From Sulfuriferula plumbiphila (lineage in GTDB: Bacteria > Pseudomonadota > Gammaproteobacteria > Burkholderiales > Sulfuriferulaceae), in assembly GCF_009938015.1 (NCBI RefSeq), contig NZ_AP021884.1:558001-622000 (forward strand): a stretch of 64,000 nt of DNA. The letters are read 5' to 3'. Below the pieces are notes generated by a model. The model worked only from the letters and a program-made list of their open reading frames with translations. It did not search any database and was not told where the DNA came from. The position numbers were made by a program, and so were the translations under genes. The number at the start of each line of letters is the position of its first letter. Within the stretch, counting starts at the first letter, position 1. Below, in pieces: positions 10,496 to 63,915 of the stretch.

Positions 10496-11221
10496 CTACA
10501 TTCCCAGCGCCTGCTTTTGCAACGCGACCAGCTGACGGATGCCGCTGTCGGCCAGATCCAGCAGCGCGTTTAATTCAGCGCGCGAATAGGCTGCACCCTC
10601 GGCGGTACCCTGTACTTCAATCAGCCCGCCGCGCCCGGTCATCACCACGTTCATGTCGGTGTCGCAGCCGGAGTCTTCCAGGTAATCGAGGTCGAGCACG
10701 GGTACGCCCTGATAAATGCCAACCGAAATGGCCGCCACAAAATCGCGGATCGGCGATTCGGTGAGCAGGCTGCGCGCCAGCAGGGTGCCAATGGCGTCGT
10801 GCACGGCAACGAAGGCGCCGGTGATGGAGGCGGTACGCGTGCCGCCGTCAGCCTGGATGACGTCACAATCTATGTGCAGGGTGCGTTCGCCGAGTTTGTC
10901 CAGATCTACCGCGGCGCGCAGGCTGCGCCCGATCAGGCGCTGGATTTCCTGGGTGCGGCCGGACTGTTTGCCGCGCGCGGCTTCGCGGTCCATGCGGCTG
11001 CCGGTGGAACGCGGCAGCATGCCGTATTCGGCGGTGAGCCAGCCCTGGTTTTTGCCTTTGAGAAAGGCAGGGACTTTTTCAACTACGCTGGCGGTGCAGA
11101 TCACCTTGGTGTCGCCGCATTCGACCAGCACTGCGCCTTCGGCGTGTTTGGTGTAGTTGCGGGTGAACCGGATGTCACGTAACTGGTCAGGCTGACGCTG
11201 GCTGGGACGGGGGGTGCTCAT
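10496..11221 (-). CDS. rph: Ribonuclease PH
   Basis: A 241-residue phosphorolytic exoribonuclease that trims tRNA 3' ends. It begins [25 protein letters not shown] and contains the [20 protein letters not shown] and [16 protein letters not shown] stretches of the RNase PH core. It is full length. It lies six bases downstream of the PP2C gene and just upstream of rdgB, an order common in proteobacteria. Confidence 0.95.
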
Positions 11222-11227
11222 GAGTGC

Positions 11228-12130
11228 TTACTTTCCTGAGTATTTTTTGATGGCATTCTGGATTTCGGCGATGGCGCGCTCGACTTCGTCTTCGGCCAGA
11301 TCCGGCGGCGCTGCGGGGAACTCGTCCATTCTGGTGGTGAAGGTATTAACCGGCATGGACAAGGTGGACACCGACTGGCTGCCGGGTTCGCCCAGCGCAC
11401 CCCAGGTCATGGCAATCGCTGACAGGTTGTCACCGGCATGGCCAGCGCGCAGCTCCGCGTGATCCATCAAAAATTCGACCGCACGTGCCAGCGGGAAAGC
11501 GCGCAGCGTGGCGGCAATCTGTTCTTCGGTGAGCGCACCCCACAGGCCATCGGTGCAGAGCAGGATGGTGTCGTGCTCGGATAGCGGTATGGGACGCGAG
11601 ACTTCCACCTCGGGAGGCATGTGGCCGCCCAGGCAGTTGTAGATTTTGTTGCGGTCGGGATGGGTTTTCATCTCTTCCTGGGTGATGAAACCGTCATCGC
11701 ATAACTGTTGCACGGTGGAGTGATCGCGGGTGCGCGTCACCAGGCCGCTGTCGCCGTACAGGTAGAGCCGCGAATCGCCCGCATGCGCCCACCACGCGGT
11801 ATCATCCTGCAACACGCAGGCCACGCAAGTGGTATGCGGTATTTCGGCCAGATTATGCGTGCGCGAGTGGTCGTTGATGGCCTGGTGCGCGCGCTCCAGT
11901 GCGCCATGCAGGAATGCAGCGGGCTCATTGAGCTTGGGCCGGGCATTGCGCTGGAAGGTTTCTGCCAGGGTCTGAACGGTAATCTGTGCGGCCAGCTCGC
12001 CGTGCGAATGGCCGCCCATACCGTCGGCGACCACCATCAGCAGGGCATCGCGGCTGTAGGAATAGGCAACTCGATCCTGATTATAGTTACGGCCACCCTG
12101 ACGGCTTGCCTGATAGATGGAAAAGTGCAT
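11228..12130 (-). CDS. PP2C-family protein serine/threonine phosphatase
   Basis: A 300-residue PPM/PP2C phosphatase. Metal-binding motifs are visible in order: GGRNYNQDR near residue 15, VADGMGGHSHGE near 35, WWAHAGDSRLYLY near 115, and LLCTDGLWGALTE near 190 with a final GHAGDNLSAI. It is cytosolic. It lies 27 bases downstream of a protein kinase gene, so the two probably form a reversible phosphorylation pair, as in the Stp1/PppA families. Confidence 0.9.
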   Translation of the reverse strand: MHFSIYQASRQGGRNYNQDRVAYSYSRDALLMVVADGMGGHSHGELAAQITVQTLAETFQRNARPKLNEPAAFLHGALERAHQAINDHSRTHNLAEIPHTTCVACVLQDDTAWWAHAGDSRLYLYGDSGLVTRTRDHSTVQQLCDDGFITQEEMKTHPDRNKIYNCLGGHMPPEVEVSRPIPLSEHDTILLCTDGLWGALTEEQIAATLRAFPLARAVEFLMDHAELRAGHAGDNLSAIAMTWGALGEPGSQSVSTLSMPVNTFTTRMDEFPAAPPDLAEDEVERAIAEIQNAIKKYSGK

Positions 12131-12157
12131 TTTGGTATCTTGTCCCTTACACCTGAA

Positions 12158-13099
12158 TCAGAAAATTTCGCGGTTGAATGTCTTGCGCAGGCTGGCCATT
12201 ATTTTGCGCTTTTTGCTGAGCGGCGGGGGGGGTTCCATCAGCGCTTTTTGCAGGGTGAAAACGCTCTGCGGACGTGCCATGTAGTCCAGCCGCAGGCAGC
12301 CATCTATAATTTCCAGCAGACGCTCAGAGTATTCGCCTGTCCAGGTCGAGCGCGCTGAGGCAAGTCTGTCGCTGACCAGGCGTGCGTCGGCTGCCTGGGG
12401 GGCAAATCCGGCCAGGCACGCATACAGGCTGGCGCCCACGCTGTAGATGTCAGTCCACGGCCCCAGCATGGTCTGGTCGGTGTACTGTTCCGGTGCTGCA
12501 AAGCCTGGCGTATACATCGGTGCAAGGAGGGGCTGGTCGAGGGTGAGGGTCTGACGCGCGGCGCCGAAATCAATCAGCACCGGCGAGCCATCCATGCGTA
12601 TGTAAATATTGGAGGGCTTGATGTCGAGGTGCAGCAGCTTTTGTGTATGCACCTCGCGCAGGCCGTTGAGCAGTTCAGCAAACACGCGCCGAATGAAGCC
12701 TTCGCGCACTTCGCCGCGGTGCGCGCGGATGTGATCCTGCAGGGTCTTGCCGCGCTCGTAGCGCATTACCATGTACACGGTGTCGTTGGCGCGGAAAAAA
12801 TTCTGCACCCGTACTACGTTAGGGTGGAGAATGCGCGCCAGCGAGCGGCCTTCCTCAAAGAAGCATTTCATGCCGTAGCGGAAGGCGTTGGCGTTTTCCT
12901 GGGTGATGGGTTCGACCAGATCGTTTTCACCGCGTTTGACCAGACTGCCGGGCAGGTATTCCTTGATTGCCACGGGCTGGTCGGCGCTGTCGTAGGCCAG
13001 GTAAACCAGACTGAAACCGCCGCCGCCGATTTTGCGCACGATGCGGTAGTCCATGAGCAGATAGCCATTGGGCAGAGCGTAGTTGGGTTGAGCAGCCAT
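12158..13099 (-). CDS. Serine/threonine protein kinase (Hanks type)
   Basis: A 313-residue cytosolic kinase. It has the glycine loop IGGGGFSLVYLAYD, the VAIKEYL lysine (about residue 46), the catalytic loop LHLDIKPSNIYI (HLD in place of HRD), the Mg-binding LIDFGAAR and an APE-like AAPEQY. No transmembrane or PASTA sensor region follows, so the stimulus is unknown. It pairs with the PP2C gene downstream. The 123 bases between it and the divergent yicC must hold both promoters. Confidence 0.9.
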   Translation of the reverse strand: MAAQPNYALPNGYLLMDYRIVRKIGGGGFSLVYLAYDSADQPVAIKEYLPGSLVKRGENDLVEPITQENANAFRYGMKCFFEEGRSLARILHPNVVRVQNFFRANDTVYMVMRYERGKTLQDHIRAHRGEVREGFIRRVFAELLNGLREVHTQKLLHLDIKPSNIYIRMDGSPVLIDFGAARQTLTLDQPLLAPMYTPGFAAPEQYTDQTMLGPWTDIYSVGASLYACLAGFAPQAADARLVSDRLASARSTWTGEYSERLLEIIDGCLRLDYMARPQSVFTLQKALMEPPPPLSKKRKIMASLRKTFNREIF

Positions 13100-13222
13100 G
13101 AATCAGCGATGTACCATGCGGGTTTGTCGTGTTGGTTTTAATGGCGCATCCCGCCGACGTTTTGAATCGAATTGTGTGCGATTAACGGCAACAAAGTAAA
13201 GAAAGTTTAGTGGGTACCCTAA

Positions 13223-14086
13223 ATGATATCTAGCATGACCGGTTACGCGGCGGCGTCTGTGCACCACGCCGGACTGCATCTGAGCCTGGATCTGCGCTCG
13301 GTAAACTCGCGCTATCTGGAAATCCATTTCCGCTGCGGCGATGAATTCCGGACCATCGAGCCGCATCTGCGCGAACGTATCGCCCAGCACGTCCAGCGCG
13401 GCAAGCTGGAATGCCGTGTGCTGCTGGACAGCAGCGCTGGCGCAGAGCGCGAATTGCAGCTCAATCTGGCCTTGCTGGAACGCCTGAGCGGATTGGGTGA
13501 GGTGGTGACCCGGCACCTGCCTGGCGCGCTGCAAATGAGTGTGGCCGAGGTGCTGCGCTGGCCGGGTATGCTGGATGACCCGCTGGCCAACCAGGATCTG
13601 ACCCGGCCCTGCCTGCAGCTACTCGACACGGTGCTGGATGAATTTGTTGCCAGCCGGCAGCGCGAAGGTGCCAGGCTGCGTGCGCACCTGCTGGAGCGTG
13701 CAGCGCAGATGGAGGCGCACATCGGCCGCGTTGCACCGCGCCTGCCGGAACTGGTGCGCGTTTATCAGGACAAGCTGGCGCAGCGCTTTACCGAAGTGCT
13801 GGGCAGCGCAGATGATGAACGTATCCGTCAGGAAATCGCGCTGTTCGCGCAGAAAATAGATGTGGACGAGGAGCTGTCGCGCCTCGGTGTGCACATTCGA
13901 GAGGTGCGGCGTATTCTCGACACGGACGGTGCGGCCGGCAAACGCCTGGATTTCCTCATGCAGGAGCTGAACCGCGAGGCCAATACCCTGGGTTCCAAGT
14001 CGGTGAGCGTGGAGACCACCCAGGTGGCAATGGAACTCAAGGTGCTGATCGAGCAGATGCGCGAGCAGGTACAAAATCTGGAATAA
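13223..14086 (+). CDS. yicC: YicC family protein (endoribonuclease-type)
   Basis: A 287-residue protein starting MISSMTGYAAASV, close to the usual MIRSMTGYA of the family, with the C-terminal DUF1732 signature ELSRLGVHIREVRRIL...RLDFLMQELNREANTLGSKS. Family members are cytoplasmic and have been implicated in RNA cleavage and stationary-phase survival. It lies nine bases before gmk, the neighbour it has in many proteobacteria. Confidence 0.92.
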   Translation: MISSMTGYAAASVHHAGLHLSLDLRSVNSRYLEIHFRCGDEFRTIEPHLRERIAQHVQRGKLECRVLLDSSAGAERELQLNLALLERLSGLGEVVTRHLPGALQMSVAEVLRWPGMLDDPLANQDLTRPCLQLLDTVLDEFVASRQREGARLRAHLLERAAQMEAHIGRVAPRLPELVRVYQDKLAQRFTEVLGSADDERIRQEIALFAQKIDVDEELSRLGVHIREVRRILDTDGAAGKRLDFLMQELNREANTLGSKSVSVETTQVAMELKVLIEQMREQVQNLE

Positions 14087-52648: not shown

Positions 52649-52855
52649 CGCAGTTAGTGCCCTGGTTCCAGCTGTCTTCAAACCTACCGTTTGGTGGACG
52701 AATGGCTAAAAAACCACCGGAGAAAGTGAACGATTCGAGGCCTCGCAATTATTGGTTGATAATTTCTAAATCAGTAGATTCCAATACGCTGATATACTGG
52801 ATCCGATTTGAATCAAGCTGTCCGATGTGTCGTCTGCTGGTTGAGGAGTTACAAC

Positions 52856-54274
52856 ATGGATCTTCTGCACAACCCGGAGTTTCTGTCCCGCGCGCAATTC
52901 GGTTTCATTGCCCTGTTTCATATCCTCTGGCCGCCATTGACCATCGGCCTTGCCCTGATTCTGTTTGGTCTTGAGGCCGCCTGGGTCAAAACCGGGAAAG
53001 TCGTTTATTACCACCAGGCACGCTTCTGGACCAAAATTTTCCTCATCAACTTCGGTGTCGGCGTGATCAGCGGCTTGCCGATGGAGTTTTCCTTCGGTAC
53101 CAACTGGGGGCCATTCTCCATCGCCAGCGGCGACTTTTTCGGCAATATTCTGGGTTTTGAAACCGCCATGGCGTTCATGCTGGAGGCCGGTTTCCTTGGC
53201 ATCATGTTGTTCGGCTGGAAGCGTGTAAGTGCCGGCATGCACCTGTTTGCCACCGGCATGGTGGCGTTCGGCAGCACGCTGTCGGCGTTCTGGATCATGG
53301 TCGCCAATTCGTGGATGCAGACTCCCAGCGGGGTCGAAATGCAGAATGGCAAGCTTGCCATCACCAGCTACTTCGACGCGATATTCAATCCGGATCTGGC
53401 GCACGGCTTCGGGCACATGTTCATGGCCTGTCTTGAAATCTCCCTGGTGGTGACCGCTGGCGTGAGTGCCTACTACCTGCTGAACAACCGCCACAGGGAT
53501 TTCTTTTTACCCGCATTCAAATGGTCAGTGCTGTCACTGGTACTGGTGGCACCCCTGCAAATCCTGATTGGCGACTCGGCCGGTGCCGCGCTGGCGCAGA
53601 CGCAACCGGCCAAACTGGCGGCAATCGAATCGCTGTGGCACACCAACAAGCCGGGCGAGGGCGCGCCCTGGGCAATCCTCGCTGCACCCAACCCGGCGGC
53701 GCAAAAGAACGACTGGGAAATCACCGTTCCGGACGTCACCAGCCTGATTGTCACCCATTCGCTGAACGGCACAGTGCAGGGGTTGACCGACTTCAAACCC
53801 GCCGACCAGCCGCCGGTGCTGATCCCGTTTTACGGTTTTCGCGTGATGGTCGCGGCAGGGGGGTTCATCGCCTTCATGGCGTTGACGACGCTGTGGCTGC
53901 TGTGGCGTCGACGCGAGCGTATGCAGCCCGCCAGCGTGGGGCAGAATAAATGGCTGTTGCGTGGCTGGATGCTGGCCATCCCGGCGGCGTATATCGCCAT
54001 CGAAGCGGGCTGGCTGGTACGCGAGGTGGGGCGGCAGCCGTGGATCGTGTACGGCATGATGCGCACCGCACAAGGCGTCAGCAAAATTTCCGTGGCGGTA
54101 TTGCAGTGGTCATTGCTGTCTTTCGTGGTGTTTTATAGCGCCATCGGCATCGCGGCGCTGGTCTTCATGCGCGGCGTCCTGCGTAAAGGGCCGGTGTTTG
54201 AAGATCCGCCGCATCAACCTGCCCGGCACGCCGATATTGTGACCCAGCCCGTTGTTGTTGGAGGAGGTCATTGA
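52856..54274 (+). CDS. cydA: Cytochrome bd quinol oxidase subunit I (CIO type)
   Basis: A 472-residue inner-membrane oxidase subunit carrying hemes b558, b595 and d. The N-terminal His of FHILWPPLTIG, His and Met in GHMFMACLE and RQPWIVYGMMRTAQGVS supply heme ligands. GLPMEFSFGTNWGPFS is the conserved quinol/proton region. The Q-loop (about residues 230-300, PAKLAAIESLWHTNKPGEG) is short, as in cyanide-insensitive oxidases. GAGGAG lies seven bases before ATG 52856. Confidence 0.95.
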   Translation: MDLLHNPEFLSRAQFGFIALFHILWPPLTIGLALILFGLEAAWVKTGKVVYYHQARFWTKIFLINFGVGVISGLPMEFSFGTNWGPFSIASGDFFGNILGFETAMAFMLEAGFLGIMLFGWKRVSAGMHLFATGMVAFGSTLSAFWIMVANSWMQTPSGVEMQNGKLAITSYFDAIFNPDLAHGFGHMFMACLEISLVVTAGVSAYYLLNNRHRDFFLPAFKWSVLSLVLVAPLQILIGDSAGAALAQTQPAKLAAIESLWHTNKPGEGAPWAILAAPNPAAQKNDWEITVPDVTSLIVTHSLNGTVQGLTDFKPADQPPVLIPFYGFRVMVAAGGFIAFMALTTLWLLWRRRERMQPASVGQNKWLLRGWMLAIPAAYIAIEAGWLVREVGRQPWIVYGMMRTAQGVSKISVAVLQWSLLSFVVFYSAIGIAALVFMRGVLRKGPVFEDPPHQPARHADIVTQPVVVGGGH

Positions 54275-55302
54275 TGGATGTTATCGCGCTAGATTCTACG
54301 CACCACCTGCTGGCGACCATCTGGTTCCTCATCATCGGGCTGTTCATGGTGATTTATGTGGTGCTCGATGGCTTCGATCTCGGCGTCGGTGTGCTCTCGT
54401 TGTTTGTCGGCGACGAGCCGCGTCGCGCGGCCATGATGTCCAGTTTGGGCAGCATCTGGGACGCCAACGAAACCTGGCTGGTGGTCATCGGCGGCACGCT
54501 GTTCGGCGCATTTCCACTGGTGTACGGCACCGTGTTGCACGGGCTGTACATTCCGGTCATCGTCATGCTGCTTGGCTTCATGCTGCGCGGCGTGTCGTTT
54601 GAATTCCACGAATTGTCTACCAACAAACCCATCTGGAGTTTCACATTCGGGCTGGGCAGTCTGATTGCCGCCCTGGCGCAGGGTTTTACTCTGGGCGGGC
54701 TGTTGAATGGCGTGCAAGTGGTCAACGGTGTCTATGCGGGCGGTACGATGGACTGGCTGTCGCCATTCAGCGTATTTGTCGCCATCGGTGTCGTGGCCGG
54801 TTACGCCATGCTGGGCTCGACCTACCTGATCATGAAATCGCGCGGCATGATGCAGGACGCCTGCTTTGCCCGCGGCCAGTGGCTGGCACTGACCATGATG
54901 GTGGCTGCTGCCGTGGTCACGGTGTGGACACCGCTGCAATTCCCGGCCATTTTTGCGCGCTGGCTCAGCGTTCCCAACGTGTATTACTTTGCGCTGCTGC
55001 CGCTGGCCGCGCTTTTCAGTCTGGTCATGCTGCTGCGCGCGCTCAAAAACCGTTCCGAGGTGGCGCCGTTTGTATGGACCACACTGATCTTCCTGTTTTC
55101 CTTTGCCGGGCTGGCGGCGACCTGGTTTCCCTACATCATTCCCGGCTACATCACCATCGATCAGGCGGCAGCATCGAACAACACGCTGGTGTTCATGCTG
55201 GTCGGCATCGGTATGCTGATCCCGGTGATGATTACTTACAATATTTACCAGTACGTGGTGTTCCGCGGCAAGGTCGATCCGGATAACACGCATACGTATT
55301 AA
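54274..55302 (+). CDS. cydB: Cytochrome bd quinol oxidase subunit II
   Basis: A 342-residue membrane protein with about eight helices. It starts at ATG 54274, overlapping the cydA stop (TGATG), and contains VIYVVLDGFDLGVGVL, WDANETWLVVIGGTLFGAFP and LYIPVIVMLLGFMLRGVSFEF of the CydB/CioB family. No small CydX-like frame follows. It ends 198 bases from the converging nuoN-like gene. Confidence 0.95.
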   Translation: MDVIALDSTHHLLATIWFLIIGLFMVIYVVLDGFDLGVGVLSLFVGDEPRRAAMMSSLGSIWDANETWLVVIGGTLFGAFPLVYGTVLHGLYIPVIVMLLGFMLRGVSFEFHELSTNKPIWSFTFGLGSLIAALAQGFTLGGLLNGVQVVNGVYAGGTMDWLSPFSVFVAIGVVAGYAMLGSTYLIMKSRGMMQDACFARGQWLALTMMVAAAVVTVWTPLQFPAIFARWLSVPNVYYFALLPLAALFSLVMLLRALKNRSEVAPFVWTTLIFLFSFAGLAATWFPYIIPGYITIDQAAASNNTLVFMLVGIGMLIPVMITYNIYQYVVFRGKVDPDNTHTY

Positions 55303-55500: not shown

Positions 55501-56889
55501 TTAATCGATGGCTCCGAGTAGCAGCTGTGCCGCCAAGCCAAGGCCAAGAGAAACGATCAAGGCAATGAGCCAGACCGTTCTGATCAGGAGCATGTGTCCG
55601 TGCAGCTGCACGACGGTCTCGCCACCCTCATCGCGCGGACGGAACATGGGCACGATAATCCGCAGGTACACCGCCAGCGACAGAACGCTGTTGAGGATAG
55701 CCACGAAGGCGAGCCAGGTGAAATGTGCGTCAATGGCGGCACCAAACAGCAGGAATTTTCCAGAAAATCCTGCAAGCGGCGGGATGCCGACGAGTGACAT
55801 GAGAAATATCGTCATCGCGATGCCGGTGACCGGCCTGGTACGCCCCATGCCCGTAAATGCATCAAGCGTACGGCCCGTGCACTGGATGATGGCGAACGCC
55901 CCAAGGTTCATGGCTGCGTAGGCGGCAGCGAACACGACAAGGGACGCAAGCGCAAGGGAGCTTGCCCCTGCCGCGGCGATGCCAAGCAGGAAATAGCCCG
56001 CCTGGGCAATCGATGAATAGGCCAGGAGTCTCACGACGTTTTCCTGCACCAGGGCAGCGAGATAACCCCAGGACATGGTCAGCACGGCCACGGATGCGAC
56101 TACAAACGGCCAGCCGGTGGTCGTGGGCAGGTCGCGGGCAACCTGGGCCAGGGCAAAAATTGCACCGATCTTCGGCACCACAGAGAGATACGCGGCGACC
56201 GATATAGGGGCACCTTCGTAGGCATCGGGGGCCCAGAAATGGAATGGTGCCAGTGACGCCTTATAACCCAGGCCGGTAATCACGGCGGCCAGGCCGATCG
56301 TTGCGGCGAGCGGTGTCTTGTCGAGATGCACCAGATCAGTGAACAGCGTGGATCCGGTTCCGCCGAACCAGTAGGAGAGGCCGAAAATCATCACGCCACC
56401 CGTCACCGAAGCGAATACGAAAAACTTCATGGCGGCCTCGGTCGCGGCGTCGTTTCGAGGGTGCGCGACCAGTGCGAAAGCTCCGAGCGAGGACAACAGC
56501 ACACCCAGCACCAAAAACATGGTGTCGCCACTCCCGGCCAGTACCAGCGCGCCAAACGTGACGAAGCAGAGCAGGCTGTAGACGGTACCTTCCCGATCGC
56601 TGCCGGCGAGTTCGGCGCGCGCCAACAACAGCGACAGCACGGTGGCTGGCAGTAGAATCAGCTTGGCCCAAATACTCAGCGTATCGATGCGGAAGGTGCC
56701 TCCGAATACCTCGGTATCCACACCCAGCAACGGAAGGGTCAAGCCCGTAGCGAGCAATAGCCCGCCAGCGGCAAAAGCCAGCGCAGCGCGCGACAGGCGC
56801 AACATCTCGAACACCAAGGCACCGGCACCGGCGATCAGCACCACCATCTCGGGGATCAGGTACGGCAGGTCGTGCGCCATCTGAGTCAT
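55501..56889 (-). CDS. NuoN-like proton-pumping subunit
   Basis: A 462-residue antiporter-like membrane subunit with about 14 helices. It has YKASLAPFHFWAPDAYEGAP, in which the Lys-His-Trp is conserved, and ENVVRLLAYSSIAQAGYFLLG. The start ATG 56889 follows the nuoM stop by 16 bases. A longer frame runs to 56964 but has no family homology in its extension. It is the last gene of the complex-I-like cluster. Confidence 0.9.
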   Translation of the reverse strand: MTQMAHDLPYLIPEMVVLIAGAGALVFEMLRLSRAALAFAAGGLLLATGLTLPLLGVDTEVFGGTFRIDTLSIWAKLILLPATVLSLLLARAELAGSDREGTVYSLLCFVTFGALVLAGSGDTMFLVLGVLLSSLGAFALVAHPRNDAATEAAMKFFVFASVTGGVMIFGLSYWFGGTGSTLFTDLVHLDKTPLAATIGLAAVITGLGYKASLAPFHFWAPDAYEGAPISVAAYLSVVPKIGAIFALAQVARDLPTTTGWPFVVASVAVLTMSWGYLAALVQENVVRLLAYSSIAQAGYFLLGIAAAGASSLALASLVVFAAAYAAMNLGAFAIIQCTGRTLDAFTGMGRTRPVTGIAMTIFLMSLVGIPPLAGFSGKFLLFGAAIDAHFTWLAFVAILNSVLSLAVYLRIIVPMFRPRDEGGETVVQLHGHMLLIRTVWLIALIVSLGLGLAAQLLLGAID

Positions 56890-56905
56890 GCCAGTCGTGT
56901 ACCCA

Positions 56906-58375
56906 TCAAAAATGCAGGGCCGCAGTGGTCTGGTGAATCGTGCCCAGTAGCCATGATGGTGCAATGCCTATGCTGATGATCAGCACCAGGAGCGGCGCCA
57001 GCGTCAGAACTTCACGCGCGTTCAGATCAGGCATGCCCGCCCACTGTTCGCGGGGTGCGCCGAAAAATACTTTGCCGATGGCGCGCAGGTACAGGCCAGC
57101 CGTAATCACAATGCCGAGAATCACAATGAGCGCCACCGGTTCCTCGCGCAGTGTGGCGAGGAAGATCTGGAACTCGGCCGGAAAATGGGCAAGCCCCGGC
57201 AGGCCGAGTGAGGCGAATGCTGCCAGTACAAATGACCAGCCGAGCAGCGGTACAAACTTCAGCAGGCCGCCGAAACTGTCCATCTCGCGCGTGTGCGCAC
57301 GATCATTCAGCATGCCGATCAGGAAGAACAGCGCGCCTGTGACCAGACCATGGCTGACCATCTGCAGAACCGAACCATCCAGCGCCATAGCGCGTATAGC
57401 AGGCTGGGTGGTCAGCGCAGCGATAGCGACGCCGACAATGACATAGCCCATGTGGTTGACTGAAGTATAGGCGACCATGCGCTTCAGATCGCTCTGTGCC
57501 AGCGCTGCAAAGGCGCCATATAGTGCACTGAATACGCCGAAAACAAGGACCACAACGCCGGCTTGGCGAAAGGCATCGGGTGTCATCTGCAGGGCGAAGC
57601 GCACCAGGCCGTAGGCGCCGAACTTGAGCATGACGCCGGCGAGGATGACGCTGCCGGCGGTCGGCGCCTGGACGTGGGCAGCCGGCAGCCAGGTATGCAG
57701 GGGGAAGACCGGCGTCTTCACCGCGAAGGTAAACAGCATCGCGACCAGCGTCAGCATGGCCGCCGTGCCGGTCAACGGTGGACTGGCGATCCAGGCGCGC
57801 ATGTCAAAGGTATGCGGATCACTGCCCAGGTAAAGGCCGAGAATGGCGAGCAGCAGCGGCAGGCTGCCCAGCAGGGTATAGAGGAAGAACATCAGCGCCG
57901 CACGCTGTCTGTCCTCATGACCCCAGCCGGCGATCATGAAGTACATGGAAACCAGCGACACTTCGAAAAAGACGTAGAACAGCAGTGCGTCGAGTGCCGT
58001 GAAGGTGCCGATCGAGGCCGTCTCCAGCAGCAGCATCAGGATCACGTAGGCGTGGGGGCGCTCCCTCACGTTGGCCGAAAAGATGAAGGTCAGAAAGAAC
58101 AGGAACGCGGTCAGCAACACCAGGGACAGGCTGATGCCATCCACCCCCACCCGATAGCTGGCGCCGATGGTCGGTATCCAGTCGAACTGCTCCACCTGCG
58201 AGAACCCCCCTGAATCCACACCCCGCGACCACATCCACAGCGCGCCGGCCAGCACCAGTGCGCTGGTGAGGATGCCTATGCCGTGCACAACAGAGGCCGG
58301 TGTCCGGCGCAGGGCCATGACAGACAGCGCCCCCAGCAGAGGCAGAAACAGGGTCGTCGACACAATGGGAAACAC
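56906..58375 (-). CDS. NuoM-like proton-pumping subunit
   Basis: A 489-residue membrane subunit. Conserved charged proton-path residues are visible: Glu in FFEVSLVSMYFMIAGWG, Lys in FAVKTPVFPLHTWLPAAH, Lys in MLKFGAYGLVRF and Glu in FPAEFQIFLAT. Length and motifs suggest a functional antiporter-like module. It is preceded by nuoL with a 32-base gap. Confidence 0.93.
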   Translation of the reverse strand: MFPIVSTTLFLPLLGALSVMALRRTPASVVHGIGILTSALVLAGALWMWSRGVDSGGFSQVEQFDWIPTIGASYRVGVDGISLSLVLLTAFLFFLTFIFSANVRERPHAYVILMLLLETASIGTFTALDALLFYVFFEVSLVSMYFMIAGWGHEDRQRAALMFFLYTLLGSLPLLLAILGLYLGSDPHTFDMRAWIASPPLTGTAAMLTLVAMLFTFAVKTPVFPLHTWLPAAHVQAPTAGSVILAGVMLKFGAYGLVRFALQMTPDAFRQAGVVVLVFGVFSALYGAFAALAQSDLKRMVAYTSVNHMGYVIVGVAIAALTTQPAIRAMALDGSVLQMVSHGLVTGALFFLIGMLNDRAHTREMDSFGGLLKFVPLLGWSFVLAAFASLGLPGLAHFPAEFQIFLATLREEPVALIVILGIVITAGLYLRAIGKVFFGAPREQWAGMPDLNAREVLTLAPLLVLIISIGIAPSWLLGTIHQTTAALHF

Positions 58376-58407
58376 GCCGGATTCTCCTCTTCAAATATTC
58401 TGAATGA

Positions 58408-60228
58408 TCATGTTAAAGCCAGCAGGCTGGCCATCAGGGCCGCCAGGATAAGGGCCGCACCCACCACGCTCATGGCCAGCTCGCGGTGGATCAGACCGCT
58501 TTGCAGCGTGCGCACCTGGGCGCCCAACGCCAAACTGCCGCGCACCAGGGCGAAAATCAGTCCATCGACCCCGCGTTCGTCGCTCTTGCGTACCACCCGG
58601 CCAATGGCGAGGCCGAGCCGACCCATTGCGAGGATCGCCCTATAGAGCCTGCTTTCGAGTTGCTCGCAGGCCTGTGCCAGGGCCAGGGCAGGGCGCACGA
58701 CCCAGGCATCCATGCCGCCTGCGATGGCAAAGCCTTGCTGTGCCCAGGTCAGGAGAGGCCCCAGCAGGCGCTGGCCACCGGCAAACCAGCCCAGCACCAG
58801 GCCGGTTAGCGCCGCCCCCAGTCCTGCAATCTGCGCCACGGTGCTTTCAGGCAGGTGGCTGACCAGCACCCCCTCGATAGACGGAAAGGCGCGTCCCAGG
58901 ATGACGGCCAGGCTGGCCAGACCGGCGAGTCCCGCGCCCATCCAGGCCAGCCCAGCCACCGGCCGCTTCTGGCGCTCGCCGCGCCACAGGATGCGCAGCG
59001 CCCGAGCCATGTAGGCCCCCGTCAGCAGCGTCCCAGCCAGGGCGAGTGAACCGAGCAGGGCGGCATGTTCCGAAGACAGGGCTGCAGCAATGACAGCATC
59101 CTTGGAAAAGAAACCACTCAAAGGCGGGATGCCGGCCAGCGCCAACGCTGCCAGCGCAAAGCCGGCGAAGATGCGCGGCCGGTCATGCCCGGCACCATGC
59201 AGGTCCGTCAGTCGTGTGGACTCGCGGCTGTGCTGAAACACGCCTGCGCCGAGAAACAGCGAACTCTTGATGGCCGCATGCGCGATCAGGTGCAGCAGCG
59301 CCGCCAGGGGTACACCGGCGCCCACCGCTACCAGCATGAGGCCATATTGGCTGGAGGTCGAAGCCGCCAACAGGCGCTTGAGGTCCTTCTCGCCCAAGGC
59401 GATGAGGCCCGTGACGACCGTGGTCACACCGCCGACCAGGCCAACGGCGAGCAGGGCATCGGACGGCAGCAGCGGCGAGGTACGGATCAGCAGGATGGCC
59501 CCGGCCGCCACCAGCGTGGCCGAGTGCAGCAGGGCCGAGACCGGTGTGGGACCGGCCATCGCACCCAGCAGCCAGTCGTGCAGCGGTGTCTGTGCCGACT
59601 TGCCCATGGCGGCGACCAGCAGCAGGAGCCCTGCGGCGAAGGCGGCAGCGCCGCCCGTGTGCAGGGCGGCGGCAATTTCGCTGCTGCCGGTCGCGGCGAT
59701 CAGGATGAAAACCGCCGTGTAGAGACCCAGGTCGGCCGTTCGCGTATAGAGAAAGGCGCGGGTGGCGGCCGCCCATACGCCGGGGCGCTGGTACCAGAAG
59801 CCGATCAGCAGATAACTGCTCAGCCCGATGAGTTCCCAGGCCGCCAGCAACAACACCCAATCGCCGGCCAGCACCAACGTCTGCATGGCGGCAATGAAAA
59901 ACGACAGGGTGGCAAAGAAACGGGGCTTGTCCGGATCCTCTTTCATATAGCCGACGGCATAGACCAGTACGAAGGCGCCCACGACGGCGACCATTACGGA
60001 CAGGAGCGCATTCAGGGGTTCGGAAATCAGGCGCAAGGGCATGTCCGGCAGGCCGGGCAGGATCAGCGTGTGGTGCACGCCGTCGAAGGCATCGGCCAGC
60101 AGCCACAGGCTCGCAACCAAACCAATTCCCGCACCCGCCAGGGCGAATGCAGCGGGTGCGCGACGCACCAACGGGATCAGAGCTGCCGCCGCGAGCGGCG
60201 CGAGCACGACAAGGGCAAGGAAGCTCAT
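58408..60228 (-). CDS. NuoL-like proton-pumping subunit
   Basis: A 606-residue membrane subunit with the lateral-helix C-terminus. It shows Glu in WELIGLSSYLLIGFWY, Lys in GKSAQTPLHDWLLGAMAGPTPVSALLHSATLVAAG and Lys in LSGFFSKDAVIAAAL. These match the proton-translocating residues of NuoL/MrpA. It starts inside the nuoK stop (60225-60228), so translation is coupled. Confidence 0.93.
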   Translation of the reverse strand: MSFLALVVLAPLAAAALIPLVRRAPAAFALAGAGIGLVASLWLLADAFDGVHHTLILPGLPDMPLRLISEPLNALLSVMVAVVGAFVLVYAVGYMKEDPDKPRFFATLSFFIAAMQTLVLAGDWVLLLAAWELIGLSSYLLIGFWYQRPGVWAAATRAFLYTRTADLGLYTAVFILIAATGSSEIAAALHTGGAAAFAAGLLLLVAAMGKSAQTPLHDWLLGAMAGPTPVSALLHSATLVAAGAILLIRTSPLLPSDALLAVGLVGGVTTVVTGLIALGEKDLKRLLAASTSSQYGLMLVAVGAGVPLAALLHLIAHAAIKSSLFLGAGVFQHSRESTRLTDLHGAGHDRPRIFAGFALAALALAGIPPLSGFFSKDAVIAAALSSEHAALLGSLALAGTLLTGAYMARALRILWRGERQKRPVAGLAWMGAGLAGLASLAVILGRAFPSIEGVLVSHLPESTVAQIAGLGAALTGLVLGWFAGGQRLLGPLLTWAQQGFAIAGGMDAWVVRPALALAQACEQLESRLYRAILAMGRLGLAIGRVVRKSDERGVDGLIFALVRGSLALGAQVRTLQSGLIHRELAMSVVGAALILAALMASLLALT

Positions 60229-60536
60229 CCTTTCAGCTCCTGAGCTTCTTCCATTTCCACAGACCCCTTAGTGCGAAAACGCGCGATCGCCACCCCGAAA
60301 CCGACTGCCATTTCCAGTGCCATCACCGTCATGACAATGAGCACGAACATTTGGCCAGCATAGCTATCCGGGTGCAAAAAGCGCCAGAAGGCGACCAGGT
60401 TAACCAGGGCGCCGGCCAAAATCAGCTCCACGCCCATCATGATCATGACCAGATTGGTCTGCGACAAGGCACCATAGATCCCCACACCAAACAGCGCGGC
60501 GCCGATGAACAGGGCCAGCAGCAGGTCCAGACTCAT
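60225..60536 (-). CDS. NuoK-like subunit
   Basis: A 103-residue, three-helix membrane subunit. The two key glutamates are conserved: GVELILAG (near residue 37) and VMALEMAVGFGV (near residue 74). Its start overlaps the nuoJ stop and its stop overlaps the nuoL start. Confidence 0.92.
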   Translation of the reverse strand: MSLDLLLALFIGAALFGVGIYGALSQTNLVMIMMGVELILAGALVNLVAFWRFLHPDSYAGQMFVLIVMTVMALEMAVGFGVAIARFRTKGSVEMEEAQELKG

Positions 60537-61060
60537 GACGTTTTCTTCCGTTGCAGGGCCGGCATCGCCACCGCAGTGGCAGCGATCATCGCGGTCAGGA
60601 TGGTGACACCGGCGGTCTCGAAGATGAGCATCGATCGGCCGAGCAGTTCCATACCCAGCGCGCGCGTCTGTTCCGCCGCCGCCGGGGCTGCAACGCCATC
60701 CGCGCCCCAGTGCGTGAACAGGGCGATGCCGGCCGTGACCAGCGCACCCGCCACGCCGGCCAGGATGGACAGTTGCTTCTGGTGAGTCATTTCCATTTCA
60801 CCGAGTCCGCCCGGATCCATCATGAACATCACCATGAAGATGGCCATGATGCTCATCTCCGTGGCCATCATCATGATCTGCAGGACGCCGAGAAACTCCG
60901 CCTGCATGGCCAGGAACATGGCGCCGAGGGCGGTCTGCGAGAACAGCAGCGCCAGGGCCGAGCGCATCATCGAAGAGGTGCGAAAGACGGATACGCCGAA
61001 CGCGACGGAGGCGATACCGAAAAAAGCAATGAACAGCGTCTGCAGAGTGATCATGGCCAT
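60533..61060 (-). CDS. NuoJ-like subunit
   Basis: A 175-residue membrane subunit with about five helices. It has the ALALLFSQTALGAMFLAMQAEFLGVLQIMMMATEM region typical of NuoJ. Its start lies 10 bases inside the nuoH stop region and its stop overlaps nuoK. The transmembrane segment that forms the pi-bulge in canonical NuoJ (residues ~55-80) appears present but its glycines are partly changed. Confidence 0.85.
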   Translation of the reverse strand: MAMITLQTLFIAFFGIASVAFGVSVFRTSSMMRSALALLFSQTALGAMFLAMQAEFLGVLQIMMMATEMSIMAIFMVMFMMDPGGLGEMEMTHQKQLSILAGVAGALVTAGIALFTHWGADGVAAPAAAEQTRALGMELLGRSMLIFETAGVTILTAMIAATAVAMPALQRKKTS

Positions 61061-61947
61061 ATCAGTACCAAAACGCCGACGATAAAGAGGTTGAGCAGAG
61101 CCAGCGGGATGCCCAGTTTCCAGCTCCAGGCCAGCAGATGCGCCTCACGAATGCGCGGCAGATAATGCCCGGTCAGCAGCATGGCGGCGCTGACGGCGAG
61201 GATCTTGATGGCGCTCCACACCCAGGGCGGCAGTGCCGGGCCCAGCCAGCCGCCCAGGTAGAATACCGTCGTGGCCGCCGCCAGCGACACGACCAGCACC
61301 ATCCTGGCCAGCCGGAACACGGCCAGGCGCGCGCCGGTGTATTCGGCCTCCACGCCGCCCGCCAGCTCCCCGCCCGCGGTGGGCAGGTCGAAAGGTGGCA
61401 GAAAGGACACGGCCAGGGCGGCGATGAAGAACAGCACGAAACCCAGCGGCTGATAGACGATGTTCCATACCGCGCCCTGCGAGTCGACGATATCCGTGGT
61501 GAGCAGTGACTCGGCGCGCATGGCGACCGCCGTGATGGGCATGACGATGAGCATGGAGTAGGCGATCACCTGTCCCAGGAACCGCCAGCCGCCCACCAGT
61601 GCGTAGGCACCGTCCACCCCCCACCCTGCCATCAACAGCGCTACCAGCACATAGGCCAGCGCCGCGTTGACGAACAGGGCGCCGGTAGCCAGATCGGTAA
61701 TGACCAGCTGCGGGCTCAGTGGCAGCACGGCGGCGGCCAGCAGCGCGGCGACGAGCAGCAGGACCGGTGCGGTTTCGAAGAAGAGCCTGTCCGGTGTCCG
61801 GGGTACGATGGATTCCCGGCCCAGCAGTGCCATGGCTGCCCATGCCGGGGCTGCCAGCCGGAAACGACCACTCGCAAGCCAGGCCTCCAGGACCGCGACC
61901 AGGTATGCACCCGCCAATAGAAACGACACGACTATCAGGGTGTTCAT
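61051..61947 (-). CDS. Divergent NuoH-like membrane subunit
   Basis: A 298-residue membrane subunit. The C-terminal half has the NuoH signature PPFDLPTAGGELAGGVEAEYTG. The usual N-terminal RLGPNRVGP segment is replaced by GRFRLAAPAWAAMALL, and the AE-x-NR-x-PFDLPE loop is altered to AVSFLPPFDLPT. These segments form the quinone channel and its Glu/Arg cluster in complex I. The start overlaps the fusion-gene stop (ATGA). Confidence 0.85.
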   Translation of the reverse strand: MNTLIVVSFLLAGAYLVAVLEAWLASGRFRLAAPAWAAMALLGRESIVPRTPDRLFFETAPVLLLVAALLAAAVLPLSPQLVITDLATGALFVNAALAYVLVALLMAGWGVDGAYALVGGWRFLGQVIAYSMLIVMPITAVAMRAESLLTTDIVDSQGAVWNIVYQPLGFVLFFIAALAVSFLPPFDLPTAGGELAGGVEAEYTGARLAVFRLARMVLVVSLAAATTVFYLGGWLGPALPPWVWSAIKILAVSAAMLLTGHYLPRIREAHLLAWSWKLGIPLALLNLFIVGVLVLIWP

Positions 61948-63551
61948 GCCACGACCTCCCAGGGCGACAGATCCAGGGAACAGACTGTCGTCAGCGCATC
62001 GCCCAGCTCCTGTTGGGCCAGCAGGTCCGGCAGCAGGCTCATGTGAAACGTGGAGGGGGTATCCAGGCGCGCCTGAATCACCCGGCCGCTGTCCAGGATC
62101 AGGTTCAGACGCGCTTCGCCGCGTGGTGTTTCCACCGTGGCCTGCCCTTCACCCGAAGCTGCCCCGCTATCGACAGACGCTGGTTCCTTCAATACGCCCG
62201 CCGACTGGATGAGCGCGAGACTTTGCCGCATTTCCTCCAGCCGGATGCGCAGACGGTCGAGGGCATCCCCGCCTTTCCGGCGCATCACCCGGAATGACAG
62301 CGCGTTATAGGTTTCATCGGTAGTGCGTGCATCGGACCACATGCCCGCAGCCCGCGCCACCGGTCCCCGCAGGCCAGGGGCCGACGCAACGGGGCCGATT
62401 CCGGAAAGCCGGGAGCGCAGCAGTGGGGTGCGTGCCAGCCGGCCCGCCAGTGCATGCACGGCCGGGCGCAGGCGCATGATCCCGGGCAGATCGGCCCGCA
62501 GGCATTCCAGCTGCATCCGGGCCGCGTGCCGTTCGAGCCACGCAAAACCGGTCTGGCGGCCCAGTTGCGCCAGCCAGCCCAGATGGCTGGCGATGCGCTC
62601 GCGCTCCAGCGCCACGACGCGTCCGCGCAGTATTTCCTGGTCGGGCGTGCGTCCGGTTGCGGCCTCCAGCGCGCGGCAGGCGAGCAGGCGGTAGGCCACT
62701 GGCGTGAGGGGATCCATCGCGCCAAGGTGGTCAACGAAGCGGGTTGCCTCCATCCCGGTTGCCGGCAGCGACCCTGCCCCACCGACCAGCGACTGTGCAT
62801 GCGCCTTCGCGACGGCGTCCCCGTCGAGCGTCAGGGTCAGCAGCAGGCCACCAGGCAGGCCGGGGAACAAGGGGCCGAACGGCACCTCGATCCAGTCCAT
62901 CGGCAGGCCATCCGGACTGCGTGGCAGATCCTTCGTGACTTCGACCATGGACATGAACCCCATCTCGCTGTGATCCCTATCCGCATGATCCATGCCCACA
63001 TGATCATGGCCAGAATCGCCGGCCGGTACGCTTTCACGGGGGACCAGGGCCATGCCACACTTGGGACAGGAACCCGGCATGTCCTGCACAACCTCCGGGT
63101 GCATGGGGCAGGTGTACTCGATGCGGGCTTCCAGCATCGGCGCATTGAAATCGGCGGGATCGGCCTGGAAGGCACCCTGAGCCAGCAGCTTTCGTAGCTG
63201 GGCCACACCATTGAGAAGATGCTGCTGAGTCGGCGCTGCGGTCAAGTCGGCTTTGGGCAGAGACGCGAGTTCACCGCAGCCCAGCGCAAAGATCGCGCGC
63301 GGACGCATCATCTGTGCGTACAGAACGGCCGCGGCGGCTCCCAGTTCAGGGGGGACGGGGCCGACCAGCAGCAATATATTGGCATGACGCGGTGTGACGA
63401 CGATCCGCAGACCGGCTGCACCGGGATCCAGGCCTCTGGCGTGTGCCACTTCCAACCCCGGCACAACGAGTGCGCGCAAATCCCGCGCCATGCCCGTGGC
63501 CACCAGGCGGTGCAGCCATGTTGGTTTACCCCGCCGGGCGCCGGAAATCAT
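61944..63551 (-). CDS. NuoB-like / heavy-metal-binding domain / NuoD-like fusion protein
   Basis: A 535-residue predicted cytoplasmic-face protein with three parts. Residues ~10-130 resemble the NuoB/hydrogenase small subunit (VVTPRHANILLLVGPVPPEL, FALGCGELASLPKADL); the tandem Cys and later Cys of the N2 [4Fe-4S] site are absent, only Cys92 remains. Residues 146-170 form a heavy-metal-binding domain (EYTCPMHPEVVQ...GSCPKCGMALV), followed by a His/Asp-rich linker (GHDHVGMDHADRDHSEM, 181-197). Residues ~218-535 resemble NuoD (ERERIASHLGWLAQLGRQTG, TDETYNALSFRV, CSLDLSPWEVVA). The NuoD GPxHPxxHG motif reads GPLFPGLPGG, so the quinone-site His are lost. ATG 63551 is chosen because the longer frame overlaps nuoA in another phase. 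Confidence 0.8.
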   Translation of the reverse strand: MISGARRGKPTWLHRLVATGMARDLRALVVPGLEVAHARGLDPGAAGLRIVVTPRHANILLLVGPVPPELGAAAAVLYAQMMRPRAIFALGCGELASLPKADLTAAPTQQHLLNGVAQLRKLLAQGAFQADPADFNAPMLEARIEYTCPMHPEVVQDMPGSCPKCGMALVPRESVPAGDSGHDHVGMDHADRDHSEMGFMSMVEVTKDLPRSPDGLPMDWIEVPFGPLFPGLPGGLLLTLTLDGDAVAKAHAQSLVGGAGSLPATGMEATRFVDHLGAMDPLTPVAYRLLACRALEAATGRTPDQEILRGRVVALERERIASHLGWLAQLGRQTGFAWLERHAARMQLECLRADLPGIMRLRPAVHALAGRLARTPLLRSRLSGIGPVASAPGLRGPVARAAGMWSDARTTDETYNALSFRVMRRKGGDALDRLRIRLEEMRQSLALIQSAGVLKEPASVDSGAASGEGQATVETPRGEARLNLILDSGRVIQARLDTPSTFHMSLLPDLLAQQELGDALTTVCSLDLSPWEVVA

Positions 63552-63552
63552 C

Positions 63553-63915
63553 TTATTGCCTGCGCAGTGCACCCTGACTCCAGCCGTACAGCAGGCCGAG
63601 AAAGAGGATGGCCAGGAAAACGCCCATATCCAGCAGGGCGACCAGTCCTTCCTGCCTGTATACCACCGCCCACGGGTACATGTAGGCCATTTCCATGTCG
63701 AAGGCCAGGAACAGCAGTGTATAGCCATAATAACGTGCGTGGTAGCGCACCCAGACAGGATTTCTCGAAAGTTTGCCTGCCGTGGCAGGTACGTTCTTGC
63801 CCGGTTCCTGTTGCGTGCGGCCAATAGCGCGGGTCAGGGCAAAGAGGCACAGAACCAGTCCGATCACACCGCTGGTTAGGCCCAGCAGCAAGCCGTACTG
63901 TTGCAATGTACCCAT
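63553..63915 (-). CDS. NuoA-like subunit
   Basis: A 120-residue membrane subunit with three helices. The conserved acidic pair is present (LAFDMEMAYMYPWAVVYRQEG, Asp and Glu about residues 65-67). GAGGGG precedes ATG 63915. The frame is open upstream to the window end, so a longer protein cannot be excluded. It is the first complete gene of the cluster. The fusion gene starts one base after its stop. Confidence 0.9.
   Translation of the reverse strand: MGTLQQYGLLLGLTSGVIGLVLCLFALTRAIGRTQQEPGKNVPATAGKLSRNPVWVRYHARYYGYTLLFLAFDMEMAYMYPWAVVYRQEGLVALLDMGVFLAILFLGLLYGWSQGALRRQ

Follow-up and report, generated by a model that had tools for sequence, protein, structure and literature searches.

A mobile family of complex I-like gene clusters without redox ligands, with a possible role in copper transport

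What can the membrane arm of a complex I-like enzyme do once the residues for electron transfer are gone? This question is raised by a cluster of eight genes in a 64,000-nucleotide stretch of DNA from Sulfuriferula plumbiphila, which we refer to as the window and which corresponds to 558-622 kb of the 3.45-Mb single-contig genome, with the cluster at 613-622 kb. The genes run on the minus strand from position 63915 to position 55501 in the order nuoA, a fusion of nuoB and nuoD, nuoH, nuoJ, nuoK, nuoL, nuoM and nuoN. Neighbouring genes overlap or are separated by at most about 33 bases, and the start codon of the fusion overlaps the nuoA stop or abuts it within two bases. The encoded proteins match the Pfam families Oxidored_q4, Complex1_49kDa, NADHdh, Oxidored_q3, Oxidored_q2 and Proton_antipo_M (three times), and most of their top database hits are subunits of complex I. 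These coordinates and matches confirm the eight tightly spaced genes that had been named in a first-pass annotation of the window. From comparative analyses of related loci, we favour the reading, at a probability of roughly 0.38, that the cluster represents a family of complex I derivatives that would use proton entry to move Cu(I), and perhaps Ag(I), fed by a heavy metal-binding domain (HMBD) and without electrons.

An alignment of 17 NuoD-like parts served as the query for relatives of the fusion in 84,980 species, each represented by a single genome. The scan yielded 136 relatives in Proteobacteria and Actinomycetota, besides copies on plasmids; our locus studies rest on the best 80 of these 136. 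Several genomes duplicate named loci, as seen from identical rows in the tree, so residue counts are given for distinct sequences; the counts of eight-gene sets, HMBDs, copper flanks and CxxC pairs may include duplicates or near relatives. The search for the same gene set in other genomes, which had been proposed with the first-pass annotation, found it complete in 61 of the 80 loci, in all 61 on one strand and in the order A-BD-H-J-K-L-M-N. Eighteen of the 19 incomplete loci end at a contig end and one looks broken. The latter (L119, positions 10960-13714) belongs to Marinobacter salarius R9SW1, whose genome is complete; its nuoH is divided between two open reading frames (ORFs), its nuoL is short and its nuoM and nuoN were not found, and the broken operon is still located near copA/copB.

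The redox residues are lost throughout this family. At the positions of the ligands of iron-sulphur cluster N2, C64, C129 and C158 (E. coli NuoB numbering) are cysteine in none of 66 distinct family sequences and C63 is cysteine in 21 of them, whereas all four cysteines are found in 21 of 21 canonical NuoB proteins. The window copy has A, L, G and A instead. One cysteine is located one residue ahead of its C129 position, but this is seen in 1 of the 66 family sequences, and a displaced full ligand set was excluded. In the NuoD-like part, His220 is replaced by Phe in 77 and His224 by Pro in 76 of 78 distinct sequences (H224 and H228 by the usual numbering), and the quinone-site Tyr273 by Pro in 75; all three are invariant in 21 canonical sequences. 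NuoH has lost the equivalents of E157, E216 and D295, and retains D213, E220, E228 and K274 in 68 to 73 of 77 sequences; the 21-22 canonical sequences of the comparison set show no change at the canonical residues. The CxxC motif, of which the large subunit of group 4 [NiFe] hydrogenases has two pairs that bind Ni-Fe, was found in none of 95 NuoD-like parts, the one of the window containing three isolated cysteines, and NuoC, NuoI and an electron-input module are missing from the eight genes of the cluster. The absence of the N2 cysteines and of the quinone histidine, previously noticed in the window copy, is thus borne out by alignment and extends to the whole family, and therefore does not reflect the decay of one copy. 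Decay of a canonical nuo operon was likewise rejected, given the complete loci and the contig ends described above.

The subunits for electron input were also not found nearby. As first reported, NuoC, E, F, G and I are missing from the window, and no nuo gene was seen in the 14 kb upstream of the cluster, so the possibility that the missing subunits lie just outside the window was rejected. A canonical nuo operon is present in the same genome at about 1352.6-1367.1 kb, which answers another of the checks proposed with the first-pass annotation, and a canonical NuoD was also found in 14 of 14 tested cluster-bearing genomes of the class. Of the earlier proposal on function, the statement that the complex is not an NADH or formate:quinone oxidoreductase is supported, since the N2 and quinone residues are lost family-wide. 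The suggested ion or proton translocator may be specified further, as the HMBD array, the copper genes beside about half of the loci and the methionine-rich NuoJ/NuoK core point to soft-metal transport. The HMBD, the methionine pattern and the large, mobile family go beyond that annotation.

The proton-path residues of NuoL, NuoM and NuoK are kept, whereas some of those of NuoN and NuoH are lost. The key positions compared here were picked from the complex I literature. All or nearly all distinct family sequences retain E144, D178, K229, H254, K342 and K399 in NuoL, E144, K234, K265 and E407 in NuoM, and E36 and E72 in NuoK. The acids D79/E81 (E. coli numbering) of the second transmembrane helix (TM2) of NuoA are present in 69 of 69. 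In NuoN the lysines are retained, and E133, the TM5 glutamate, and H305 are lost in 68 of 68.

Between its NuoB and NuoD parts, at amino acids 146-171, the fusion carries an HMBD, which in a comparison with the PDB matches the copper P-type ATPases 3rfu and 8ovl. The HMBD motif was detected in 90 of 95 fusion ORFs in 1-10 copies, and of the other five, four are split or truncated by the end of a contig; this count leaves out L072, L082 and L098, in which the fusion is divided over two ORFs. Ten copies are found in L137 (8171-11032). In L056 (G327, 10624-12783) the HMBDs are near-identical tandem units with His/Met-rich linkers, which suggests a recent expansion by the likeness of the repeats. 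The NuoB-like part gives weak matches (NCBIfam NuoB, E 0.0056; mbhJ in the PDB, E 9e-4). An AlphaFold model of the fusion has a mean predicted local distance difference test score (pLDDT) of 85.2 and a predicted template modelling score of 0.81, with very low confidence for the linker after the HMBD, which is presumably flexible. Structure comparison of the model shows the NuoD fold to be intact; its result table is filled by NuoD chains and concerns this part, being silent on the NuoB and HMBD parts.

A second family-wide trait is the abundance of methionine in NuoJ and NuoK. Over aligned positions, NuoJ contains 10.3% methionine (9.0-12.2) in 74 distinct family sequences versus 4.4% (1.8-7.4) in 22 canonical ones, and NuoK 8.8% in 68 distinct family sequences versus 3.9% in 22 canonical ones; the p-values of the rank tests overstate the significance, since the sequences are related. 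The value for NuoJ of the window is 10.8% (aligned columns). In the other subunits, methionine is lower in the family than in canonical sequences in NuoL (2.7 versus 4.3%), NuoM (3.7 versus 4.9%) and NuoN (3.3 versus 5.7%), equal in NuoH and slightly higher in NuoA (3.8 versus 3.3%). Methionine richness as an organism-wide trait was rejected, as the canonical NuoJ and NuoK of the same genome contain 4.2% and 4.0%. Family-specific methionines conserved to at least 95% number 14 in NuoJ and 7 in NuoK (one being the start), and at 95% there are 3 in NuoA, 4 in NuoH, 1 in NuoL, 6 in NuoM and 4 in NuoN. Hence, what sets NuoJ and NuoK apart is methionine density and not the presence of single family-specific methionines.

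Some of these methionines lie next to membrane acids. In NuoJ, Tyr59 is replaced by methionine in 74 of 74 distinct sequences. In helix 3 of the window protein (MMMATEMSIMAIFMVMFMM), a 100-degree wheel puts M65, M69, M72, M76 and M80 on the same side, with E68 next to them, and M63, M64 and M81 elsewhere. NuoK has methionines near both retained membrane glutamates, with M31-M34 ahead of E37 and M72 and M76 around E75. The acids of TM2 in NuoA are flanked by three family-specific methionines in the motif FDMEMAYM (M74, M76 and M79; the methionine analysis used the numbering of a 146-amino-acid ORF).

We found copper genes next to many of the clusters. The sample comprised 52 loci with flanking sequence of at least 8 kb, and two cluster-bearing genomes supplied the 20 control windows, each of 20 kb. 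The flanks contain a CopA-type oxidase, CopB or a Cu-ATPase in 25 of the 52 loci compared to 1 of the 20 controls (Fisher p 7e-4), and any of seven copper gene types in 26 compared to 3 (p 0.008). In four Actinomycetota loci (L053, L101, L145 and L146), genes for a Cu-ATPase, CsoR and CopZ precede nuoA on the same strand by about 0.1 to 3 kb, and CopA together with CopB is found near the cluster in several Marinobacter, Alcanivorax and Onishia loci. At the genome level, CopB occurs in 12 of 14 cluster-bearing genomes of the class versus 105 of 355 others (Fisher p 3e-5, a value that ignores kinship). Multicopper oxidases and cytochromes were also seen among the neighbours, and one of the commonest is an APC-type amino acid permease (19 loci, e.g. 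L086 4694-6046).

Taken together, soft-metal transport is indicated because an HMBD array, copper genes at about half of the loci and a methionine-rich NuoJ/NuoK core coincide. The main strength of the copper reading is that lines of evidence so unlike each other agree on a single metal class. In the scheme that we propose, cytosolic Cu(I) would be caught by the HMBD and the His/Met-rich linker on the cytoplasmic face, handed to a methionine-acid path through NuoA, NuoJ and NuoK and released to the periplasm. Proton entry via NuoL and NuoM, perhaps also NuoN, would drive movements of the NuoJ and NuoK helices, which would be the reverse of the coupling direction in complex I. We are more tentative about the evolutionary form of this scheme, according to which the coupling machinery of complex I may have become a copper pump driven by the proton-motive force, with the redox arm turned into an HMBD collector and the methionine-acid path of NuoJ and NuoK run backwards. 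To our knowledge, such a pump would be without precedent in the superfamily in coupling ion movement to metal transport rather than to electron transfer.

The scheme resembles CusA, in which one helix bears the proton relay and part of the methionine relay. In CusA, three methionines and a glutamate hold Cu(I), and TM4 carries a proton-relay acid together with three relay methionines, so that, as proposed for the family, a membrane methionine relay lies next to proton-relay acids (PMC8092243). The copper P-type ATPases share the HMBD with the family, as in 3rfu and 8ovl. We know of no homology between CusA or the copper P-type ATPases and the membrane parts of the family; the likeness to CusA lies in the proposed mechanism and does not imply common descent. 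From respiratory complex I (NDH-1) the family differs by the absence of NuoC, E, F, G and I, the lost N2 and quinone ligands, the HMBD array between B and D, the methionine-rich NuoJ and NuoK and the lost TM5 glutamate of NuoN. Mrp antiporters are similar to the family in having NuoL/M/N- and NuoK-like subunits and no redox chemistry, but the family has A, BD, H and J subunits of the complex I type, and no Mrp E, F or G is among the eight genes. Group 4 [NiFe] hydrogenases and the Ehr, Mbx and MBS complexes have a comparably small subunit set with a NuoB/NuoD-like pair and antiporter-like subunits. Ehr complexes retain N2. They have, like the family, lost their metal ligands (Ni/Fe) and are suspected to be redox enzymes (PMC6349859), whereas the family has additionally lost the N2 ligands and gained metal-binding repeats.

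A gene set of this order has been in print before, while its nature is apparently new. A second "partial NDH-1 operon" of Salinispora ("NDH-1 partial 2") with seven membrane-subunit genes was described by Penn and Jensen in 2012, inferred to be horizontally acquired, with its nearest clades in mostly marine Proteobacteria, and interpreted as a sodium or proton pump (PMC3314556). The same pump reading was adopted for Kocuria flava S43 (PMC6002675) and for Streptomyces (PMC6676996, PMC8622039). For this partial nuo operon of marine actinomycetes, Streptomyces SM17/SM18 among them, the published order is nuoA, a hypothetical protein and nuoHJKLMN (PMC6676996), which is also the order in the window cluster and in the Actinomycetota loci, including Rubrobacter. 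On the basis of this gene order, the partial nuo operon probably belongs to the same family, with the hypothetical protein being the fusion: the two have in common the order, a single unassigned gene between nuoA and nuoH, horizontal acquisition and proteobacterial relatives, and differ in that the published reading is that of a proton or sodium pump for osmoadaptation. In the text available, this literature mentions neither a fusion nor lost ligands, methionine or a copper function of the nuo genes; "copper" and "metal" are absent from the main text of PMC3314556, as they are from that of a 2025 survey of complex I (PMC12361115). In the open PMC literature, which excludes subscription journals, no paper was found that joins NADH-quinone oxidoreductase, copper resistance and "heavy metal-binding domain-containing protein". 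Among the carriers of the partial operon are two strains from copper-rich sites, Streptomyces SM254 (PMC6676996) and Kocuria marina SO9-6, the "copper miner" (PMC6002675), which agree with the copper reading at the level of anecdote.

Several observations weigh against copper transport, the main weakness being that methionine enrichment and gene context are indirect. The methionines may serve other roles, such as helix packing, and their spacing in NuoJ is inferred, since the model places residues 57-81 in a single helix at low confidence (pLDDT 62). Among the well-flanked loci, 26 of 52 are without any of the seven copper gene types, and five of the six loci nearest to the window copy in the tree are among these. 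In the window genome, the copB genes lie at 176, 361 and 1455 kb, at a distance from the cluster of about 250 kb at the least. Some loci also have mercury, arsenic and membrane-stress genes nearby, which a general metal or stress island would fit equally well. No CueR-type site was found upstream of nuoA, where 4 of 73 sequences have a CueR-like dyad at 3 mismatches and none has a better one. NuoN has lost its TM5 glutamate, and a Thiogranum bin (L148, 9305-11029) harbours a second, fast-evolving copy of the operon without HMBD in which the methionines of NuoJ and NuoK are kept. Many of the named hosts are marine or halophilic, and the published marine or osmotic pump reading would explain such a distribution without copper (PMC3314556, PMC6676996, PMC6002675).

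The latter point leads to the main rival, according to which the complex would serve under ionic stress as an ion pump or as an Mrp-like antiporter that exchanges protons for Na+ or K+. Metal would be a signal at most, and its binding to the HMBD array may open or close the membrane arm. The published pump reading falls under this rival, which we rate as somewhat less probable than the copper reading. The conserved proton paths of NuoL, NuoM and NuoK and the presence of Mrp subunits among the known relatives of NuoL and NuoM fit an antiporter, and an HMBD number that varies between 1 and 10 would suit a buffer or sensor. The marine or halophilic habits of many hosts point the same way, but others such as Rhodanobacter and Rubrobacter taiwanensis "Yellowstone" are probably not marine. 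In the literature, the partial operon was tied to marine isolates that grow better on seawater medium, which is a correlation (PMC3314556, PMC6676996). What an antiporter leaves unexplained are about twenty near-invariant methionines in NuoJ and NuoK, in a complex whose NuoL, NuoM and NuoN have less methionine than canonical subunits, the retention of these methionines by the HMBD-free copy, and the copper neighbours.

It appears improbable that the complex is a metal-redox enzyme, with copper or another metal of the HMBD/BD region taking the place of N2 and with electrons that pass, for example, from Cu(I) to quinone driving proton pumping. In favour of it are the architecture of complex I, which is made to pump by redox energy, an intact NuoD fold, and multicopper oxidases and cytochromes among the neighbours, but the quinone-site His and Tyr and the acids of NuoH are replaced, the other iron-sulphur subunits are absent from the cluster, which encodes no electron wire to a partner, and the linker after the HMBD was modelled with a confidence so low that it is presumably flexible. 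A purely structural or storage role, with the BD protein as a membrane-anchored copper sponge on a scaffold formed by the remaining complex, would suit the expandable HMBDs and His-rich repeats and is comparably improbable, as a sponge has no need of seven membrane subunits and as the constant order of the eight genes in 61 of 61 loci and the retained proton-path residues argue for a working machine. The remaining probability falls to explanations outside these four.

The distribution of the family speaks for horizontal transfer. Hosts include Rhodanobacter, Alcanivorax, Halomonas, Marinobacter, Brevundimonas, Sulfitobacter, Paracoccus, Neopusillimonas and Rubrobacter, and plasmid matches annotated as HMBD protein were found in Roseovarius, Sulfitobacter, Paracoccus, Nitratireductor, Thioclava and Rubrobacter; the eight-gene set was present in all five plasmid regions inspected, out of 12 HMBD-annotated matches among the 20 matches listed. 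The family is nevertheless uncommon: a match to the fusion with E below 1e-60 was given by 14 of the 369 genomes sampled from the class, and 5 of 398 from the phylum had the fusion. A tree of NuoH, NuoK, NuoL and NuoM, made with a quick method, split 77 family rows from ten canonical rows with a branch support of 100; its outgroup consists of proteobacterial canonical sequences, so that the origin within the superfamily is outside its reach. Two Rhodanobacter bins form a group with the window copy (support 94; next larger set 97). The copy of the betaproteobacterium Neopusillimonas falls within those of Marinobacter and Halomonas, and near-identical copies are shared by different alphaproteobacterial families. 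These misplacements and shared copies, together with the plasmids, favour transfer of the operon by sequence comparison. No viral contig carrying the cluster was found among 72 candidates. In the alphaproteobacterial loci L095, L096, L100, L106, L051 and L052, a DUF6629 gene is located divergently about 220-260 bp upstream of nuoA, and its product is a possible partner of the complex.

The features of the cluster are listed in Table 1. Upstream of it (L008) lie tRNA-Met and then rpoD, dnaG, a YqeY-like gene and tsaD (gene names by sequence reading). The cluster looks like an insertion next to a tRNA gene, because a full-length match to the fusion was found in none of 17 genomes of the same genus. 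Downstream and convergent to the cluster, cydAB for a cytochrome bd-type oxidase occupies positions 52808-55302 of the window on the plus strand; in Kocuria, cyd genes in a separate region were counted with the partial nuo operon among the marine-adaptation genes (PMC6002675). A further complex I-like cluster of the same genome (L011, 8371-15540), with a 513-amino-acid fused 30/49 kDa subunit, a 20 kDa subunit and a large antiporter subunit, looks like the hydrogenase-4/formate hydrogenlyase type, and another 49-kDa match is located at 2147 kb.

Table 1. Features of the complex I-like cluster, in positions of the window. The start of nuoN was picked by homologue length; its ORF extends to 56964.
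Feature	Position	Strand	Remarks
nuoA-like gene	63553..63915	-	120 amino acids; PF00507, 82.7 bits on longer ORF
Fusion gene: NuoB-like part, HMBD, His/Met-rich linker, NuoD-like part	61944..63551	-	535 amino acids
NuoB-like part, no N2 cysteines	63117..63551	-	weak NuoB matches and alignment with 21 canonical NuoB
HMBD, single copy	63039..63116	-	PF19335, 50.3 bits (cut-off 23.6)
NuoD-like part, starts FMSM, quinone His and Tyr replaced	61947..62957	-	
nuoH-like gene	61051..61947	-	PF00146, 189.9 bits
nuoJ-like gene, Met-rich	60533..61060	-	PF00499, 70.3 bits
NuoJ helix 3, residues 63-81, MMMATEMSIMAIFMVMFMM	60818..60874	-	Met stripe, family-specific acid E68, D82 just beyond
nuoK-like gene	60225..60536	-	PF00420, 65.5 bits
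nuoL-like gene	58408..60228	-	PF00361, 196.6 bits
nuoM-like gene	56906..58375	-	TIGR01972, 491.1 bits
nuoN-like gene	55501..56889	-	PF00361, 166.6 bits

There is dispute over how complex I links the chemistry of its hydrophilic arm to proton movement far away. A relative with a preserved membrane arm that works without electrons would show which parts are sufficient for long-range coupling, and would allow the arm to be driven by proton flow alone. The HMBD-free copy in the Thiogranum bin provides a natural test of the purpose of the HMBD. If the marine actinomycete operons belong to the family, their reading as respiratory proton pumps would need revision, because the core is without the residues for respiration. 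If copper is indeed moved, the family would represent a new kind of metal pump that has so far been annotated, in the style of RefSeq, as NADH-quinone oxidoreductase subunits and a "heavy metal-binding domain-containing protein".

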